DNA from: Lentimicrobium sp. L6
GTDB taxonomy: Bacteria > Bacteroidota > Bacteroidia > Bacteroidales > UBA12170
Assembly (NCBI RefSeq): GCF_013166655.1
Contig: NZ_JABKCA010000004.1
Coordinates: 1-64,000, forward strand
Direction of reading: 5' to 3'
Length of the DNA: 64,000 nt
The position numbers and the translations under genes are program-made. Below are positions 378-28,105 of the stretch, in pieces. Each line of letters opens with the position of its first letter. The stretch's first letter is position 1. A model generated the notes under the pieces. That model did not search any database. It was given only the letters and a program-made list of their open reading frames with translations, and was not told the DNA's origin.

Positions 378-3300
378 TTATTTTTTGATGATGATTTTTT
401 CTGTTTGTTGTTGGTTTTCACCTATTAATTGAACCAAATATACAGCATTTTCAACATTTAAAGCAAATCTATGGAGATTTTTCTCTGAAAGAGAGCTTTC
501 AAATACCAGCTGACCATTTAAATTATACACTTTTATAGAGGAATATGCTGTTGGTTGTTCTTGAGAAACATATATCTGATTGCCTATAGAATAGATGTTG
601 GTTTGGGAGTTGATGAACGATTGAGTATTGGTAGCATTCAAATGTAATACAAAACGTTCTTCATCATCACTTGTAGACCATTCAAACTCATAAGAACTTA
701 ATTTAAGATTGTGTAAGATTCCTGTCTTGGTGTCCTCTAATTCAACAGCTGCGATACCATTTATTTGAACTATATCGATAGAGTATTTACCATTGTTTTG
801 GCATTGGAATCCCAATTGAATGGTATTGGTTTCTGGTCTTCTATCGATACTTAATTGAGTATCTTCATATTTTGTATAAATCTGGGGTAAATCCATTCTG
901 GGTGAAAAGAATTTATGCGCATCGTATTTACGCTCATAGCCAGGGCTTGCATCACTAATAAAACCAATCCAAACTTCATCAGAAATAGCATCAATACCTG
1001 TTTTTAATACCACTCCATTCGCAATTGTGTTTTCTTCTTTAACAAAGGTATTTGTCCCGCTATGAACTCGATCTGCATTACCTACATTAAAAGTTCCTGT
1101 ATAATCGGCCACTATAAAGAATCCTTGACCAGGAGGAATGTATTGGGAGCCATCTCCAGCTTCATCATTATATGTTCTGTAGATTTCGTTTACGCCATCA
1201 TAAGTATGTTTTGCACCATATCCTATACCATCTAATAAATCCCAATCTATCGATGAAGGAAAAGGATTTCCGATAAGATTAGCTCCTATATATCCACTGG
1301 CGTTTGCTGTTTTTGTAATAGGAATATTACTGTTGCCAGTATATGGAGCTCCTGTGAAGGTAAACAAGTTAGTTTTGGAATCAGACCAAAGTGAATATCC
1401 TATTCCTTTTTCCAAATCATCAGTTAAGGAAGTGATTTCTATCCAATCAGCTATTGTTTCATCCCATTTTTGCAGATACGATCCTGCAAAAACATCTGCT
1501 TTATTACCTGATAATGGAGCGCTAATATAATGCCATGCATCCTCAGCTACATATCGCTCCATATTAAATGTCCCATTATTAAAAATATCTCCTAAAGTTA
1601 TTAGTGAGCCAATACCTGTAGCATCTGATTTGATATTAAATATACCATTGTTGGTGAAATCTCCATTTACTGTTACTCCATTATTTACACTTAAATTAAA
1701 GGTTTTGCCAGAGGTAATGGTCAGATTATTACAGTCCAATGAACCTGAACTGGTGTAGTTTCCATCAATTATTGCATGAATGGAAGCAGTAGGTGCGCCT
1801 CCATCCCAAGTGGAGCCTTCCCATGTTGTAGTTGATGTTGTGATAAAATCTTTATCATCTCCATAGCCCGTTCCCGAAGTGTTTGTGGCGTATGCTCTAA
1901 CGTGATAGGTGGTATTTGGATTTAAACCGGTAACGGTTTCCGAGAAACTTCCTAATCCGCTTCCATCAGGTACTACAACATCGTTAACATCATCAATGTC
2001 AGGGTTTTCATCTGTACTATAAACAAAACCTCTGGCAGTAACACCAGAACCATTCTCAAGAGTAACTTCACCACTAAATGTAACGGATGTGGCTGTAGCA
2101 TCTGTAGGTTCAGACGTAACTACAACAGGGTTGTCAATCACAATTCCGGTAACAATAAGTGAAAATGCCTGATTCCCTCCTGATATACTACCATCATGGG
2201 TGATGCTAATGGTATAGCTTGAATTGGTTGGAGAGGCTATATGAATTTGCTCCACATTGTCCACATCATTATCTCCTGTTGTGGCTGCATTGGCTGGATT
2301 GTCTTTATCTAATTTATAAGGACTATAGGTGGTTTTTGCTCCTGTAATGCTCATATCCAAATCGTTGACCAGCATGGCAGCAGGATTGTCTAATGTATAA
2401 GAAGGAGGATTTCCTTCAGGGTCAGTCCAAACCAAAGTGGCTCTTAATGGATCTGTTCCATTAGCTGTAACAGTAACTGAATAGGTGGTTCCACTATAGT
2501 TTTCTTCTTTTATTAAAGAGCTCACATTTCTATTTGTTATCACATTGGCAGTAGTTTCTGCATTGAGCAATCCCCATCCAAACATGTAGTCTGGGCCTTG
2601 ATTTGGTCCACATTCATCAGCTGTTTGTATAGTCAATGCTTTCAAAGTAGCGGATTTCATATAGGCTGAATTTAAATCATAATAATGTTCTTGAACTAAC
2701 AGCAATGATCCTGTCACATTTGGAGCACTCATAGAAGTGCCATTTAATCCAGCAAAATATCCTGTTGTGTTTGGGTCATCTTCATCCCAGTAGGCGGACC
2801 AAACTCCAACCCCATTTCCACAAATATCAGGTTTAATTCTTCCATCATCAGCTGGTCCCCAACTACTAAAGCTTGACATAACAATATTGTTTGGATCAGA
2901 CTGATCACCTGCTGCTACATCTTCTACGGCGCCAACTGTTAAAATATTTTTCGCATTTCCAGTACCAGAAATACAATCATAGGGACCATCGTTATAGGGC
3001 TCAAAAGCATTTCCTGGTCCATCACCTCGATCGTTTCCTGCAGATTTTACTATCAAGTAATAGGGTGCATCTACAGCAATACCATCAAGAGAAGCGGCAC
3101 CACTATCATAATAACCAAAAATATTATGCTCACTTGCACCACCTAACCAAACCCATGAAGATCCATTCCAATACCACCCAGCTACATAACCATAGGAATG
3201 ATTAGAAATAAGCAAATTTGTTGGAGCAGCTGCAGCTGTTGCCATTTCGGCATAATCATCAGTCCAGTCGTAAGAATCGACTGAAGCACTTGATGCCATT

Positions 3301-21976: not shown

Positions 21977-24766
21977 TTATGCCTTATAAATTTTGACAGC
22001 TGCCTTTTTAAAGTCAGTTTGCTTAGAAATAGGGCAGGTTGCATCTAAACATACCTTATTAATAAACACTTTCTCGTCAAACCAAGGCACATAAATTAAA
22101 CCAACAGGAGGTCTGTTTCTACCTCTAGTGTCGATATGAGCTTTTACTTTTCCCCTTCTGGATTCTACCCAAACCAAATCGCCTTGTTGTAGGCCTTTTT
22201 TCTCAGCATCCTCTGGATGTAAATAACATAAGGCTTCGGGAACAGCACGGTATAATTCAGGAACTCTCATGGTCATGGTTCCACTATGCCAATGTTCTAA
22301 TACACGGCCAGTGCATAACCATAATGGATATTCTTTATCAGGCATTTCTGGAGGATCCATATAAGGTCTAAAGAAGATTTTTGCTTTATTCGTCAGGTCA
22401 TAATTATCTTTGTCAGCTTGAACACCAGTTAAATCACCTTGAGGAAGATTTTTGAAAGCAGCACCGTAGAATGCAAATTCTCCAGTATCGGCTTTACGAG
22501 CATAAGGATCGTATTTAGCATTAAAACGCCATTGAGTTTCTTTACCATCCACCACTGGCCATTTTAGTCCACGTACTTTATGATAGGTGTCGAAATCAGC
22601 ATAATCGTGAGCTTTTCCTTCACCAAATTTACGATACTCTTCCCAAAGATATTTCTGAATAAAGAAACCATAACCTTCCCAAGGCTTGTCGTCACTACCA
22701 ATAATTTCTCTTTTGTCTCCTTCTACTTCAGTATTTGAGAAACCATCACCAATTGGATCTGGCCAGCTATAGGACTTTGCTTCTTCGTTGGCATAAAGCA
22801 ATTCGTATAGGGTTGTTTTTTTATTATAACCCATGGCTTCTGCTTCGGCCATAACATCAGGTAGACCAGCTTCTAAACCGGGAATAGGTTGTGTGCCCCA
22901 AAGTTCGCCTATGGTAAAACGCTTTGAAAGTTCAACAATTTGCCAAGTATCTGACATGGCACCACCAACTGGAGTTACTTGTTGTTTCCAATGCTGTGTT
23001 CTACGTTCTGCATTTCCATAAGCTCCCCACTTTTCGTAGATCATGGCAGTTGGAAGAATTAAATCAGATACTTTTGCAGAAATACCTGGATAACCATCAC
23101 TACAAACAATGAAATTGTCCATTTGGCGAGCGGCTTTAATCCAGTGATTGGCATTAGCAGTATTTTGCCAAGGATTATTAACTTGTACCCAAGCAAATTT
23201 TACATTACCATCCTCTAAATCTCTCATGAGTTTCATGAAGTGTGTTCCTACTTTTGGATTTAATGTATCTTTTGGCAGTTTCCAGATTTTCTCAGAAACA
23301 GCTCTGTGTTTTGGGTTGGCGACTACCATATCAGAGGGTAAGCGGTGAGCAAATGTTCCTACTTCACGTGCTGTACCACAGGCCGATGGTTGGCCAGTTA
23401 AGCTGAAAGCACCATTCCCAGGTTTGGCTTGTTTTCCCAATAGGAAATGGACCATATAAGCTTGCTCATTCACCCATGTACCACGAGTGTGCTGATTCAT
23501 TCCCATCGTCCAGAAAGAAACTACTTTTCTTTGTTGATCTACATATAAATCTTTAAGAGCTACTAATTTCTCTTTATAAGCTTCAATATCTTCATTGCTA
23601 TCACCTTTTGATAATTCAGCAACAAATTCTAAGGTATAAGGGGCAAGAGCTTTTTTAAACTCTTCGAACTCAATCTTCCAATGTTTACCAGCACTTGCGG
23701 TATTTTTCATTTCTAAAGTATCGCCCGCTTTATGGCCTAAATATCCAAGCGTAACCCCTTCAGCTTCTGATACTATTTTAGAAGATTCTTTGGCATTGAT
23801 AACAGATTCTTTTGCATCATATTTAGGATGACCAGCTTTACGCATGCCATATCCTGTATCAACAGGACCAGTAGCAAAAATAATATGTTTATCTATGAAT
23901 TCTTGATCTACAGATTTCGGGTGATTATATACAATTTCACGAGCCAAGTAGTTCCATAAAGCTAAATCGGTTTGTGGTTTAAACACAATTTCAATATCAG
24001 CTAAATCAGAAGTTCTGTTGGTAAAAGTGGTTAGATTAACTACTTTAACTTTGTCTGGTGCACTCAATTTTCTATCGCTCACTCGAGCCCAAAGAATAGG
24101 GTGCATTTCTGACATATTAGCTCCCCAGGTTACCACTGTATCGGTAAGTTCGATATCATCATAACATCCTGCAGGCTCATCGATACCAAAAGTTTGGATA
24201 AAACCAGCAACGGCAGAAGCCATACAGTGACGAGCATTAGGATCGATATTATTAGATCTGAATCCAGCTTTCATTAATTTAACAGCAGCATATCCTTCTT
24301 GTACTGTGTATTGTCCCGAGCCAAAAATTCCTATGCCAGTAGGGCCTTTCTCTTGTAGACTACTTTTGATGTGTTTTTCCATTTCATCAAAGGCTCTCTT
24401 CCAACTTACGGGCTTAAATTTACCGTTTTTGTTGAAATTTCCAGTTTCATCTACACGTAATAAAGGTTGTTGTAGGCGGTCTTCACCATACATGATTTTT
24501 GCATTAAAGTATCCTTTAATACAATTTAAGCCCCTGTTAACAGGAGCGGCTGGATCTCCTTTTACAGCTACGATTTTATCGTCCTTGGTTGCTACCATAA
24601 TACCACATCCGGTACCACAGAACCGGCAAACTGATTTGTCCCAGCGCCATCCGCTTTCAGCATCGTTCATAGCAGCTTGAACACCCATTGGGAGTGACAT
24701 ACCTACCGCCGTGGCCACAGATGCTGCAGCAGAGTTTTTTAAAAATTCTCTTCTTGTTGTACTCAT
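21977..24766 (-). CDS. napA: Periplasmic nitrate reductase catalytic subunit
   Basis: 929 residues. A Tat signal ([15 protein letters not shown]) is followed by a 4Fe-4S site beginning C47-x2-C50-x3-C54 (CRFCGTGC) and completed by a later Cys (LNCIKG). The molybdenum-ligating Cys is in [12 protein letters not shown]. The end ([35 protein letters not shown]) is the usual NapA C-terminus. The protein is about 100 residues longer than the E. coli enzyme (828). Extra sequence near residues 295-390 is a feature of the Campylobacterota-type NapA. It reduces nitrate to nitrite. It is first in the operon, with the promoter presumably in 24767-24945. Confidence 0.97.
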
Positions 24767-25054: not shown

Positions 25055-25162
25055 TTATTTTAATAGATGATCGAACTTTTTGAGTGCCCACTTGATGAAT
25101 AAGTATGTTAAATAGATACTTATTGGCCACGTGATAAGCATGATAATTTCTTTAGTATACAT
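25055..25162 (-). CDS. CydX-like membrane microprotein
   Basis: A 35-codon ORF: begins MYTKEIIMLITWPISIYL, then continues TYLFIKWALKKFDHLLK. It has one hydrophobic helix (about residues 5-23) followed by a basic tail. The start lies 11 bp after the cydB stop and has a rare clear ribosome-binding site (AAGGAA, 5 bp before the ATG), unusual in this genome. Small single-helix subunits such as CydX in E. coli and CydS in Geobacillus accompany cytochrome bd and are encoded next to cydB. No sequence identity to CydX is claimed; the case rests on position, size, topology and the RBS. The operon terminator is about 75 bp further on. Confidence 0.65.
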   Translation of the reverse strand: MYTKEIIMLITWPISIYLTYLFIKWALKKFDHLLK

Positions 25163-25173
25163 TTTCCTTGTTT

Positions 25174-26325
25174 TTAATAAATGTGATGTTCATTTTCCAT
25201 TTCTTCTGCATCTATTTTCTTCTTGTTCATCGATTTCCATGCATACCAAATATAAGCAAGAACGAATGGAACTAAAAGTGAAACATAGGACATAGCTACT
25301 AAGGTATAGTGACTACTTGAGCTATTATATATGGTTAGTGAACTTTGTATGTCGGTATATGAAGGATAATAGGCCGTGTGATTAAAGCCAGCCATTAAAA
25401 ATAAAGCAAACACAGTAAGAATAGTTCCTATACCTGCTGGCCATATTCCTTTTGAAGAACATTTGTGTACCAGAAAAGCTCGGGCGATTCCAGCTAAAAC
25501 CATTAATACTCCAATGATTAATAAGATGAATACCACAGGTATTTGAATCAGGTTATTGAAATATTTATAAGGTTCTAAACTGATCATTCCATTTTCACTA
25601 ACTGCAAAACCATCTTTCACCAAAATATTGATCAAGAAGAAGAGAAAAAGCACCACGAATGGAATGGCATTTTTTAGTATGTTTTCTCTAGAGCGTCTTA
25701 AAATGGAGTCGTCCTCAATGCTATTCATAAAATAGAGGAGGGCTAGCGTTCGGCTGAGGAAGAAGACAGCCAATCCTAGGCTTAAATTAATATAAGTATT
25801 ATAGTCAGTCAGGGTAAGAGCCAATTCGAGTCCTCTAAAAGGAGAATCCCAGAAACTTTGGTTGAGGTCGTTAATATGGAATGGTGAGCCAGTGAAAAAG
25901 GTAGCCACTGCAGTTCCTAAGAAGATAGGCGCTATAAGTCCATTGGCAAATAGAAAACCATTAAATACTTTTTTACCCAAGAAATTATTGGGTTTTGAGC
26001 GGTATTCATAGGAAACGGCTTGCACAATGAATGCAAATAAAATAATCATCCAAACCCAATAGGCACCACCAAAACTAGTGGAATAGAATAGGGGGAAGGA
26101 TGCGAAAAAAGCGCCACCAAAGGTCACTAAAGTGGTAAAAGTAAATTCCCACTTTCTGCCGAGTGTATTAATGAGCATACTTTTTTCTAGTTCCGTTTTC
26201 CCGATGCAATTAATAAGTGTTTGTCCGCCTTGTACAAATAGTAAGAATACCAATAAGGCCCCAAGTAATGCGTTGATAGCATACCAATAATGCTGTAATG
26301 TGATTAAGTCTAAATTTTCAAACAT
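25174..26325 (-). CDS. cydB: Cytochrome bd oxidase subunit II
   Basis: 383 residues with about nine hydrophobic helices. The N-terminal YWYAINALLGALLVFLLF and the GTAVATFFTGSPF region fit CydB. It pairs with CydA as the structural, haem-poor subunit of a quinol oxidase that reduces oxygen to water without proton pumping and functions at low oxygen. The C-terminal tail is charged (MNKKKIDAEEMENEHH). It starts 1 bp after the cydA stop. Confidence 0.92.
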   Translation of the reverse strand: MFENLDLITLQHYWYAINALLGALLVFLLFVQGGQTLINCIGKTELEKSMLINTLGRKWEFTFTTLVTFGGAFFASFPLFYSTSFGGAYWVWMIILFAFIVQAVSYEYRSKPNNFLGKKVFNGFLFANGLIAPIFLGTAVATFFTGSPFHINDLNQSFWDSPFRGLELALTLTDYNTYINLSLGLAVFFLSRTLALLYFMNSIEDDSILRRSRENILKNAIPFVVLFLFFLINILVKDGFAVSENGMISLEPYKYFNNLIQIPVVFILLIIGVLMVLAGIARAFLVHKCSSKGIWPAGIGTILTVFALFLMAGFNHTAYYPSYTDIQSSLTIYNSSSSHYTLVAMSYVSLLVPFVLAYIWYAWKSMNKKKIDAEEMENEHHIY

Positions 26326-26326
26326 C

Positions 26327-27886
26327 CTAATGTCCTCCTTCGTTTGGTCCGATATGAATTTGCTTTAGCATAATTTTTATCTCAGCAATAAGCAGTGCTG
26401 TAAATGTGATAAAGAAAAGTGCAAAGGTGATGATGACACTATTGCTGTCAATATTTGAAACAGCAGTCATGGTAGGCATTAAATCTTGTATCACCCAGGG
26501 TTGTCTTCCCATTTCTGCAATAATCCATCCGCTTTCTGAAGCCACATAGGCTAATGGCATGGTCCAAACCGCTAGCCATAAAAGCCAGCGCATTTGATGT
26601 AATTTTTCTTTGTATAAAAAGAATAGAACTACCATAAAAAGAACTAGAAAATGTCCTCCAAGTACCACCATAATATGGAAACTATAAAAGCTAAAAGGAA
26701 CACTTGGGATAATATCGTGTGGGTTATCAAAATAGCTATATCCAAAATAAGCAAAGTAATTATTGAGGAAGTCTTCGTCTTCAAATTGTGCTGTTAATTT
26801 GCTTATTTGAGCTTCGTTATTGTCTTTTTTGGCTAGTTTAAAGTCGGTGAGTGCTTGACGAGCAATTTTACCTCGTTCCATCTTTTCATAATAAGACATG
26901 ATGCCTTGTTCCTCATTGCCATGTACCAAATCGTGTATGCCAGCAACAAACGCATCTCCATCTAAGAAAGCCATATAACTTAAGGCACTAGGTATTTCTA
27001 TTTCGAAGAAGAAATCTTTCTTTTTGGCATTTTCTGGAATGGGATCGTCTTTTAGGATTCCAGCTGCAACCAAAGGAGCATGGTCTGTACCATAATATAG
27101 ACCTTCCATGGCTGCAAATTTCATGGGTTGTGATTTTGCTATTTCTCTGGCACTTTCATCTCCAGTTCCGATAGTTAACACACTGAAAATAAATCCAAAA
27201 ATAGCTGCCACAAGAATGCTTTTTTTGGCCAAAGCAGCTTCTCTATTTTTGAGTAGGTACCAAGCTGAAATTCCAAGAACGAATACTGCTGCTAAAATAT
27301 AGGAAGAGTATATGGTGTGTAAAAATTTATTGATGGCATTAGGATTAAATAATACTTCCCAGAAATTATTCATCTCCATGCGGGCTGTATCTGGGTTAAA
27401 GTTCATGCCTATTGGATTTTGCATCCATCCATTAGCGACTAAAATCCAGAGCGCAGATAAGTTGCTTCCTATGGCTGTTAACCAAGTTGCGGTAAGGTGG
27501 AATCCTTTACTCACTTTATTCCAACCAAAAAACATAATGGCGATAAAAGTAGATTCCATAAAGAAAGCCATAATTCCTTCAATGGCTAGTGGGGCTCCAA
27601 AAATATCTCCAACAAACCAAGAGTAGTTAGACCAATTGGTGCCAAATTCAAATTCTAATATGATACCAGTAGCTACTCCAATGGCAAAGTTAATTCCAAA
27701 AAGAGTCATCCAAAATTTGGTGATTTTTTTCCACTCTACGTTCCCCGTTTTTACATAGATGGTCTCCATGATGGCAATGATGAAAGTAATTCCGAGGGTG
27801 AGAGGTACAAAAAGCCAGTGATATAGGGCCGTGAGCGCAAACTGAGCTCTGGACCAATCAATTAATGTAAAATCAAATTGTTCCAT
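26327..27886 (-). CDS. cydA: Cytochrome bd oxidase subunit I
   Basis: 519 residues with nine predicted helices. The first helix His (ALYHWLFVPLTLG) is a haem ligand and the family signature GRQPWVIQDLMPT is present in the last third. The Q-loop between helices 6 and 7 is present and of moderate length. It oxidises menaquinol and binds haems b558, b595 and d. It is the second gene of DUF4492-cydA-cydB-microprotein, and the tight spacing indicates a single operon. Confidence 0.96.
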   Translation of the reverse strand: MEQFDFTLIDWSRAQFALTALYHWLFVPLTLGITFIIAIMETIYVKTGNVEWKKITKFWMTLFGINFAIGVATGIILEFEFGTNWSNYSWFVGDIFGAPLAIEGIMAFFMESTFIAIMFFGWNKVSKGFHLTATWLTAIGSNLSALWILVANGWMQNPIGMNFNPDTARMEMNNFWEVLFNPNAINKFLHTIYSSYILAAVFVLGISAWYLLKNREAALAKKSILVAAIFGFIFSVLTIGTGDESAREIAKSQPMKFAAMEGLYYGTDHAPLVAAGILKDDPIPENAKKKDFFFEIEIPSALSYMAFLDGDAFVAGIHDLVHGNEEQGIMSYYEKMERGKIARQALTDFKLAKKDNNEAQISKLTAQFEDEDFLNNYFAYFGYSYFDNPHDIIPSVPFSFYSFHIMVVLGGHFLVLFMVVLFFLYKEKLHQMRWLLWLAVWTMPLAYVASESGWIIAEMGRQPWVIQDLMPTMTAVSNIDSNSVIITFALFFITFTALLIAEIKIMLKQIHIGPNEGGH

Positions 27887-27889
27887 AAA

Positions 27890-28105
27890 TTATTTATTAG
27901 GCGTAGTTAATTGTTCCAAAACATAATCGCTTTTTTGCCGATTGTTTTCAAAGTGTGATCCCAAAAAATCACTAAAGAAAAAAAGTCTGAAGATGGCAAA
28001 CATGATGAATAGCTTGATGAATATAATGAGCCACAGATTTTTGCCCCAAGTCATGTCTCTATAGCCATCGATATAAAAACTAAAGATATTTTTAATTGTT
28101 TTCAT
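27890..28105 (-). CDS. DUF4492 small membrane protein preceding cydA
   Basis: 71 residues. A short amphipathic N-terminus (MKTIKNIFSFYIDGYRDM) leads into one hydrophobic helix (LWLIIFIKLFIMFAIFRLFFF) and a polar tail. It fits the DUF4492 family, which is repeatedly found directly upstream of cydAB in Bacteroidota. It is 3 bp from cydA, so it may be an assembly factor or accessory subunit of the oxidase. No experimental role is known to me. Confidence 0.85.
   Translation of the reverse strand: MKTIKNIFSFYIDGYRDMTWGKNLWLIIFIKLFIMFAIFRLFFFSDFLGSHFENNRQKSDYVLEQLTTPNK

Follow-up and report, generated by a model that had tools for sequence, protein, structure and literature searches.

A small open reading frame closes a bd oxidase operon

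The DNA analysed here (the window) is a stretch of 64,000 nucleotides from Lentimicrobium sp. L6. Its reverse strand carries an operon for a bd oxidase, an enzyme with which anaerobes, Bacteroidales among them, can use traces of oxygen or survive them. The features of this operon are as follows.

25055..25162, (-): cydY-type microprotein ORF, 35 aa, MYTKEIIMLITWPISIYLTYLFIKWALKKFDHLLK (ORF list, ATG start)
25164..25169, (-): AAGGAA, candidate ribosome-binding site (sequence just before the ATG)
25174..26325, (-): cydB, bd oxidase subunit II, 383 aa (PF02322, E 3.7e-67; TIGR00203, 124.6 bits, cut-off 117.3)
26327..27886, (-): cydA, bd oxidase subunit I, long Q-loop type, 519 aa (PF01654, E 8.6e-167)
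27890..28105, (-): DUF4492 (PF14899) peptide, 71 aa, in the position of CydW (99.5 bits, cut-off 27)
24982-24958, (-): terminator-like hairpin closing the cydWABY unit (10-bp stem, 5 G-C pairs, T tract)

The 35-aa ORF starts 11 nt past the cydB stop codon. The window CydA is identical to E. coli CydA at 220 of 488 aligned residues and gives a phmmer match to 6rko_A across residues 8-515; it aligns through the E. coli Q-loop without a large deletion, and its Q-loop region is at least as long. Because of the hairpin at 24982-24958, the unit appears to end with the 35-aa ORF. A hairpin sequence of like kind also lies 3' of the ORF in a near relative (L002), and the number of terminator-like hairpins in the stretch is not above chance (2 found, against a mean of 2.2 in shuffles). 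As read from the sequence, the gene order of the unit is cydW(DUF4492)-cydA-cydB-cydY, with the 35-aa ORF last.

The 35-residue ORF is a conserved gene

This cydB was found in 8 of the 11 genus genomes searched (its own genome included), the other three having no cydB match. In all eight, an ORF of 35-40 codons follows cydB at a distance of 11-15 nt, with start codon, start context and motif kept. Pooled over 28 pairs, of which 11 had saturated dS, pN/pS was 0.37 in frame, whereas the two shifted frames gave 1.18 and 2.31; dN/dS was 0.10 for the closest pair and 0.59 at its highest single value. By its substitution pattern the 35-aa ORF is under frame-specific purifying selection at the protein level, which is the conserved short ORF with synonymous bias that the preliminary description had proposed to look for.

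That description, made from the sequence alone, had placed a small ORF 11 bp after the cydB stop, read it as a single helix and named AAGGAA as a ribosome-binding site rare in this genome. The ORF was borne out (35 aa, ATG start, 25055-25162, reverse strand), and AlphaFold2 likewise predicts one helix, spanning residues 3-34, with a mean pLDDT of 92. The rarity of AAGGAA holds at the scope of the window, where none of the 40 ORFs of 150 aa or more has it upstream; 5 of the 40 are preceded by any of four SD-like tetramers, in a survey that took first-ATG starts from the window rather than the whole genome. Conservation in close relatives was named as a point at which the idea could fail. ORF and start were kept in 8/8 genomes, but an SD-like site precedes the peptide ORF in only six of the eight genus loci and was not found at the L002 and L003 loci, the window's two nearest relatives by CydB, so the ribosome-binding site is less conserved than the ORF.

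A wider set of 41 genomes contained 30 with a cydB match, two of which are distant (25-27% identity). Among the other 28, the ORF lies within 400 bases of cydB in 17, and L010 has it at +426. No Pfam or NCBIfam model matches the 35-aa ORF, a PDB profile search with the peptide gave no match, and only weak chance matches were obtained when 17 Bacteroidales members were searched against Pfam and NCBIfam and 13 Campylobacterota members against Pfam. Comparative evidence confirms the ORF at 25055-25162 (-) as a real conserved gene, far beyond chance.

The peptide resembles CydY/CioY of Campylobacterota

In the literature, the peptide at this place in Campylobacterota is CydY, named by Allen et al. 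in 2014, who recognised it as a small ORF directly after cydB in an operon with a long-Q-loop CydA and without cydX (PMC4325964). In C. jejuni, where it has been renamed CioY (CJsORF3), Ribo-seq detected it; it was co-immunoprecipitated with CioA, to which it binds, and was predicted by AlphaFold-multimer at the CydX site; published translation and CydA/CioA binding are reported for C. jejuni CioY only (PMC11955535). Some structure papers use the name CydY for another protein, the E. coli orphan subunit YnhF/CydH (PMC8951039, PMC6853902, PMC8585947).

CydB close to that of the window is present in 14 of 36 Campylobacterota genomes; 13 of these are intact and 48-57% identical. All 13 intact cydB genes are followed 8-31 nt downstream by an ORF, usually with the motif W-P-x-x-I-Y-x-S-Y-K-F, of which variants occur (Pro is absent in 2/13). 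To compare the two groups, profiles were built from Bacteroidales only (A1), from Campylobacterota (A2) and from both combined (A3). Alignment of A1 with A2 in hhalign gave a probability of 98.5% and an E of 3e-15. In a blind test, A1 was run over the 36 whole Campylobacterota genomes. It found matches in 12 genomes at E<1e-3, all directly after cydB, against 13 intact operons; the intact operon of G479 was missed, and two extra matches (E 0.03-0.04) fell in genomes without this cydB. With the match of A1 to A2, the blind test and the presence of DUF4492 in the same 13 genomes, the cydW-A-B-Y operon is common to both phyla, and this rules out the peptide as a Bacteroidota invention.

The remaining cydB, in G457 (L226, titled Campylobacter jejuni strain GP013), is broken by an in-frame stop; neither DUF4492 nor the peptide was found in that genome, and its cyd unit may be decaying or misassembled. 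Among the matches listed for a plasmid collection (60 of 234 records), none was a Campylobacterota cydB.

Several of the traits by which CydY was described are found in the window. The ORF follows cydB at 11 nt, the Q-loop of CydA is long, no CydX model matches, and A1 recovers 12 of the 13 Campylobacterota copies. CydY has a single TM helix that opens with a conserved tryptophan, and in the window peptide one helix is predicted over residues 3-34. For a strong ribosome-binding site, another trait of CydY, AAGGAA is a candidate in the window; SD-like sites occur in six of the eight genus loci and before 5/40 of the window ORFs. Across 75 distinct peptides with an ATG start, W12 is kept in 92%, P13 in 97%, I16 in 92% and Y20 in 86%. 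The W, P and Y among these are the residues reported as conserved in C. jejuni CioY (PMC11955535), which supports membership in CydY/CioY. The Bacteroidales and Campylobacterota peptides share the single helix, the W-P-x-x-I core followed by Y, the long-Q-loop CydA and DUF4492 upstream of cydA, and the 34-aa copy in the genome of C. jejuni isolate_W1 (L221) has the length reported for CioY (PMC11955535). They differ in that Bacteroidales copies often start MYxxEI or MYxSSI and end in K-K-F/L-D/E, whereas many Campylobacterota copies end in N-I-x-x-x-E-K, and in that a Bacteroides-Prevotella clade has no linked copy.

The preliminary description had proposed a Bacteroidota counterpart of CydX or CydS. 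These sequence comparisons strongly support a role of the peptide as an accessory to the bd oxidase, but the best match is CydY/CioY and not CydX (CydX/AppX: PF08173, TIGR02106, Proteobacteria). A true CydX that has diverged in Bacteroidota would occupy the same place, since CydX is also a one-helix peptide after the cydB of a long-Q-loop oxidase, with a tryptophan at the helix start and a charged C-terminal tail; the tryptophan registers align (E. coli W2/W6 with positions 8/12), and the profile-profile score of 16.7 exceeds the shuffled mean of 8.2 (sd 2.4). However, this similarity is at the edge of detection, with a probability of 26-27% and 2 of 200 column shuffles scoring as high, and a common origin of CydX and CydY was not established. 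PF08173 and TIGR02106 match none of 17 Bacteroidales members and PF08173 none of 13 Campylobacterota members (the latter searched with Pfam only; E up to 10 in both cases), whereas CydX of E. coli, Pseudoalteromonas and Tistrella, used as positive controls, scored far over both cut-offs. The peptide lacks the W-Y-F-A-W-I-L-G core, and where the 11 CydX sequences have Ile or Leu behind the second Trp, 97% of the 75 peptides have Pro. We consider a diverged CydX improbable. CydZ (PF10617, DUF2474), also a small one-helix peptide with a tryptophan after cydB, is described as pairing with a short-Q-loop CydA (PMC4325964); this identity was rejected, as the Q-loop of the window CydA is long and PF10617 matches neither the ORF nor the 17 members.

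Our reading is that the 35-aa peptide is very probably an accessory subunit of a long-Q-loop bd oxidase. It would be of the CydY/CioY type, as Allen et al. 2014 use the name CydY, would be encoded last in a cydWABY operon and would most likely clamp CydA as CydX does.

DUF4492 is the other small protein of the operon

DUF4492 precedes cydA in both Bacteroidales and Campylobacterota. At E<=1e-3 it was detected in 88 of 149 Bacteroidales genomes. Among the 36 Campylobacterota genomes it exceeded the cut-off in exactly those 13 whose cydB of this type is intact (the match of G464 contains stops). The gene upstream of cydA in Porphyromonas gingivalis was named cydW (PGN_1040) in 2015 (PMC4668044). 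Judged by position and size (71 aa here, 82 aa in P. gingivalis), cydW probably corresponds to DUF4492, which in both cases is a small membrane protein encoded directly upstream of cydA and separate from CydY. The earlier suggestion that DUF4492 is a second accessory peptide fits this position, although as a gene it is not new, since it is probably the cydW named in 2015 (PMC4668044). DUF4492 itself was not mentioned in the literature searched, which stops short of most subscription journals and bioRxiv.

A nap-like locus next to the operon

Just past the cyd terminator, window positions 21977-24766 (-) hold a 929-aa NapA-like nitrate reductase ORF, which we take to be NapA, together with ferredoxin-type ORFs. 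The NapA of Marinifilum is 72% identical to that of Sulfuricurvum, and NapA of Campylobacter and Helicobacter are about equally close. Given this likeness across phyla, nap, like cyd, may be shared between them, and both may be common to Bacteroidales and Campylobacterota.

Distribution of the peptide in Bacteroidota

In a phylum-wide sample of 296 genomes, only three of which are Bacteroidales, CydB more than 50% identical to that of the window occurred only in those three, and a strong A1 match only in the window's own genome. The weak A1 matches outside Bacteroidales (E 0.002-0.1) were checked visually against the cydB coordinates; none of them lay beside cydB.

We then searched 149 whole Bacteroidales genomes with the combined profile A3. 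A strong match (E<1e-5) was present in 56, and in 51 of them it is on the strand of DUF4492, 2.68-3.31 kb downstream of it. The profile had been built in part with sequences from 11 of the 56 genomes; of the 45 that contributed none, 41 have the peptide at this distance. The other four comprise G062 and G124, in which the copy follows a cydB fragment at a contig edge, G068, in which the copy is at a contig end and cydB is cut by another contig end, and G081, whose copy is unlinked. Of the 88 genomes with DUF4492, 54 had a strong peptide match, one had a weak match in the right place (G054) and 33 had none. Because cydB is cut at contig ends in G062, G124 and G068 (L351, L352 and L353, where cydY is near a contig edge and cydB is cut by the same or another contig end), the counts of linked copies are lower bounds.

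Weak A3 matches in G044 and G127 contained no such ORF when the sequence was read. In G140 (L384, contig 212, near 25974), a short cydY-like ORF, IDLSSVLSYLSWPAFVAVSYLVIRQKR..., scores weakly with A3 (E 0.003), and the 3 kb of sequence read there contain neither cydB nor cydA; G024, a member of the genus of G140, has a linked cydY.

Among 30 further genomes searched with the combined profile, eight matches at E<1e-7 were all directly after cydB, and one match at E 0.004 had no cydB near it. Two metagenome-assembled genomes titled Chlorobiota, G502 (L389) and G509 (L391), contain the operon end with the peptide and a cydB 60% and 66% identical, and a third, titled Bacteroidota (G515), has peptide and cydB with an identity within 60-66%. 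The range of the peptide may reach past Bacteroidales as GTDB draws it, or the naming of these assemblies may be to blame.

The linked peptide appears to have been lost more than once

A tree of CydA and CydB was built from 117 tips: E. coli, 13 Campylobacterota and 103 Bacteroidales tips from 102 genomes or records. Two tips, L006 and L291, are the same genome (G010), so that the 64 Bacteroidales tips with the peptide represent 63 genomes; L314 and L324 (cut cydB), L349 and L351-L354 were left out. The CydA proteins that accompany CydY are described as forming one clade beside that of CydX; the tree here has one CydX-type outgroup only. In it the Campylobacterota and Bacteroidales operons fall together with a weakly supported branching order (0.27 for the arrangement of the phyla at the base), and parsimony places the peptide at the base.

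In the uncorrected tree, a copy within 900 nt of cydB is absent from one 31-tip clade and from eight single tips. Two of these tips were scored differently on inspection. L372 is unscorable for loss, since only 52 nt of its contig remain beyond cydB. G081 (L344), which branches first within the 31-tip clade, carries an unlinked copy, MYWREILWLISWPLMIWILHLIITSAINKYEDK..., on another contig. This copy (L354, contig 112, about 2371-2469, reverse strand) lies directly after another small ORF, and G081 is possibly an intermediate between linkage and loss. The corrected count for the 102 genomes or records is 63 with a linked copy, 1 unlinked, 1 unscorable and 37 without, the last made up of 30 in one clade (support 0.98) and 7 single lineages. 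The 30-tip clade includes records named Bacteroides finegoldii, Parabacteroides distasonis, Phocaeicola massiliensis and Prevotella nigrescens; in these four only the cyd region was searched, so an unlinked copy elsewhere is possible, and for L335 and L277 "no linked copy" is judged on 238 nt and 513 nt after cydB, respectively. Of the 39 tips that have no linked downstream peptide, 35 still have DUF4492. The branch that includes the gut and oral relatives Bacteroides, Parabacteroides, Phocaeicola and Prevotella appears to have lost the peptide and, as 37 of the 102 genomes or records have no copy that was found, the peptide is not essential to this oxidase type.

Linked copies mostly lie 5-90 nt after cydB; in four they lie 156, 426, 476 and 605 nt away, and two have no ATG at the expected place. 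The copies at 426, 476 and 605 nt belong to G039 (L319), G100 (L313) and G108 (L329). Given gaps of 426-605 nt compared with the usual 5-90, these distant cydY genes may have their own promoters.

Changes in CydA suggest where the peptide docks

E. coli CydX or AppX touches CydA helices 1, 5 and 6 and has been described as a clamp (PMC6853902, PMC13189123, PMC8585947); a review gives the CydX contacts as TM1, 4, 5, 6 and 7 (PMC8951039). Conservation along the peptide rises and falls with the period of a helix (p 0.03), a pattern that a single packed face should produce. CydA was compared between the 78 tips with the peptide, among which G010 is counted twice and G081 is placed as having it, and those without. 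Position 225 is Lys or Arg in 0/78 tips with the peptide, 27/30 of the loss clade and 3/7 single losses (30/37 without it). Position 189 is Phe in 0/78, 20/30 and 3/7, Leu being kept in the other 4/7 single losses, and position 35 is aromatic in 76/78, 4/30 and 6/7. G081, with its unlinked copy, keeps L189 and L225 and has Ile at 35. In the predicted CydA (mean pLDDT 83.5), position 225 falls in TM6 (217-252), 189 in TM5 (182-212) and 35 in TM1 (6-47). Position 189 adjoins H190, which aligns with E. coli His186, a ligand of heme b558 (PMC6853902).

Seven of the ten most divergent CydA columns lie in TM1/5/6, helices that make up 21% of CydA; with gaps set aside, the loss clade has 5-6 of its top ten there, compared with 3 when the seven single losses are taken by themselves. 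As a control, 11 splits among clades that have the peptide put 0-5 of the top ten columns in these helices, with three splits nested around the window's genus at 4-5. In random lineage sets, which still counted G081 in the loss clade, four shared gains were reached in 11 of 300 draws, with a mean of 0.66 columns compared with the 4 observed; one of those four is in CydB and one in CydA TM4. The CydA changes point to docking of the peptide where CydX docks, an argument that is only suggestive because of these controls and is weakened by resting mainly on one 30-tip clade.

In the arrangement that we propose, the peptide would form a single helix with its N-terminus out and its basic C-terminus in, and its conserved face (W12/P13, I16, Y20 and their neighbours) would pack on CydA TM1, TM5 and TM6 beside heme b558. 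It would act as CydX does in E. coli, clamping CydA and stabilising the heme-bearing bundle. For Lentimicrobium sp. L6, translation, topology, binding and heme stabilisation are what we infer from the genes. The peptide might instead work like CydH/YnhF of E. coli, plugging the TM1/TM9 cleft of CydA and closing the lateral oxygen path rather than occupying the CydX site. CydH, too, is a small accessory subunit with one helix and belongs to a long-Q-loop bd oxidase, but it is encoded outside the cyd operon and docks elsewhere on CydA (PMC8951039), whereas the window gene is inside the operon. The published AlphaFold-multimer model has C. jejuni CioY at the CydX site (PMC11955535), and TM9 holds none of the ten most divergent CydA columns of the loss clade and one of ten for the single losses alone, which makes a CydH-like placement very unlikely. 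Another rival, that this reading frame is fortuitous or is an untranslated 3' spacer or terminator leader, can be practically dismissed: the ORF is short, matches no family model and lies in an AT-rich window where ORFs of 25-35 aa are common, but it is under frame-specific purifying selection, recurs as the same protein at the same place in two phyla and keeps its start codon in 8/8 genus genomes with this cydB.

Returning to a CydY/CioY-type subunit at the CydX site, we tentatively suggest a history to which we give slightly less than an even chance. The cydW-A-B-Y operon would be a distinct four-gene class of bd oxidase with two accessory peptides, shared by transfer between Bacteroidales and Campylobacterota; in the Bacteroides-Prevotella branch of gut and mouth CydY would have become unlinked, as in G081, and then lost; and CydA would have changed its docking face, with a bulky Phe by the heme b558 ligand and Lys or Arg on TM6, to become independent of CydY.

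Significance of CydY in Bacteroidota

The only report found on bd small subunits in Bacteroidota, in a search that stops short of most subscription journals and bioRxiv, is one of absence. For P. gingivalis it states that neither a homologue of cydX nor a cydY or cydZ directly following cydAB was found (PMC4668044). The peptide found in 56 of 149 sampled Bacteroidales genomes stands in contrast to that reported absence. As far as our searches reach, CydY is a known kind of subunit newly recognised in Bacteroidota, and it represents a peptide family that has no model in Pfam or NCBIfam. Its repeated absence, together with the matching CydA changes, amounts to a natural experiment on the role of one-helix subunits. 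The comparison names CydA positions 35, 189 and 225 as test sites and suggests which species should depend on the peptide and which should not.
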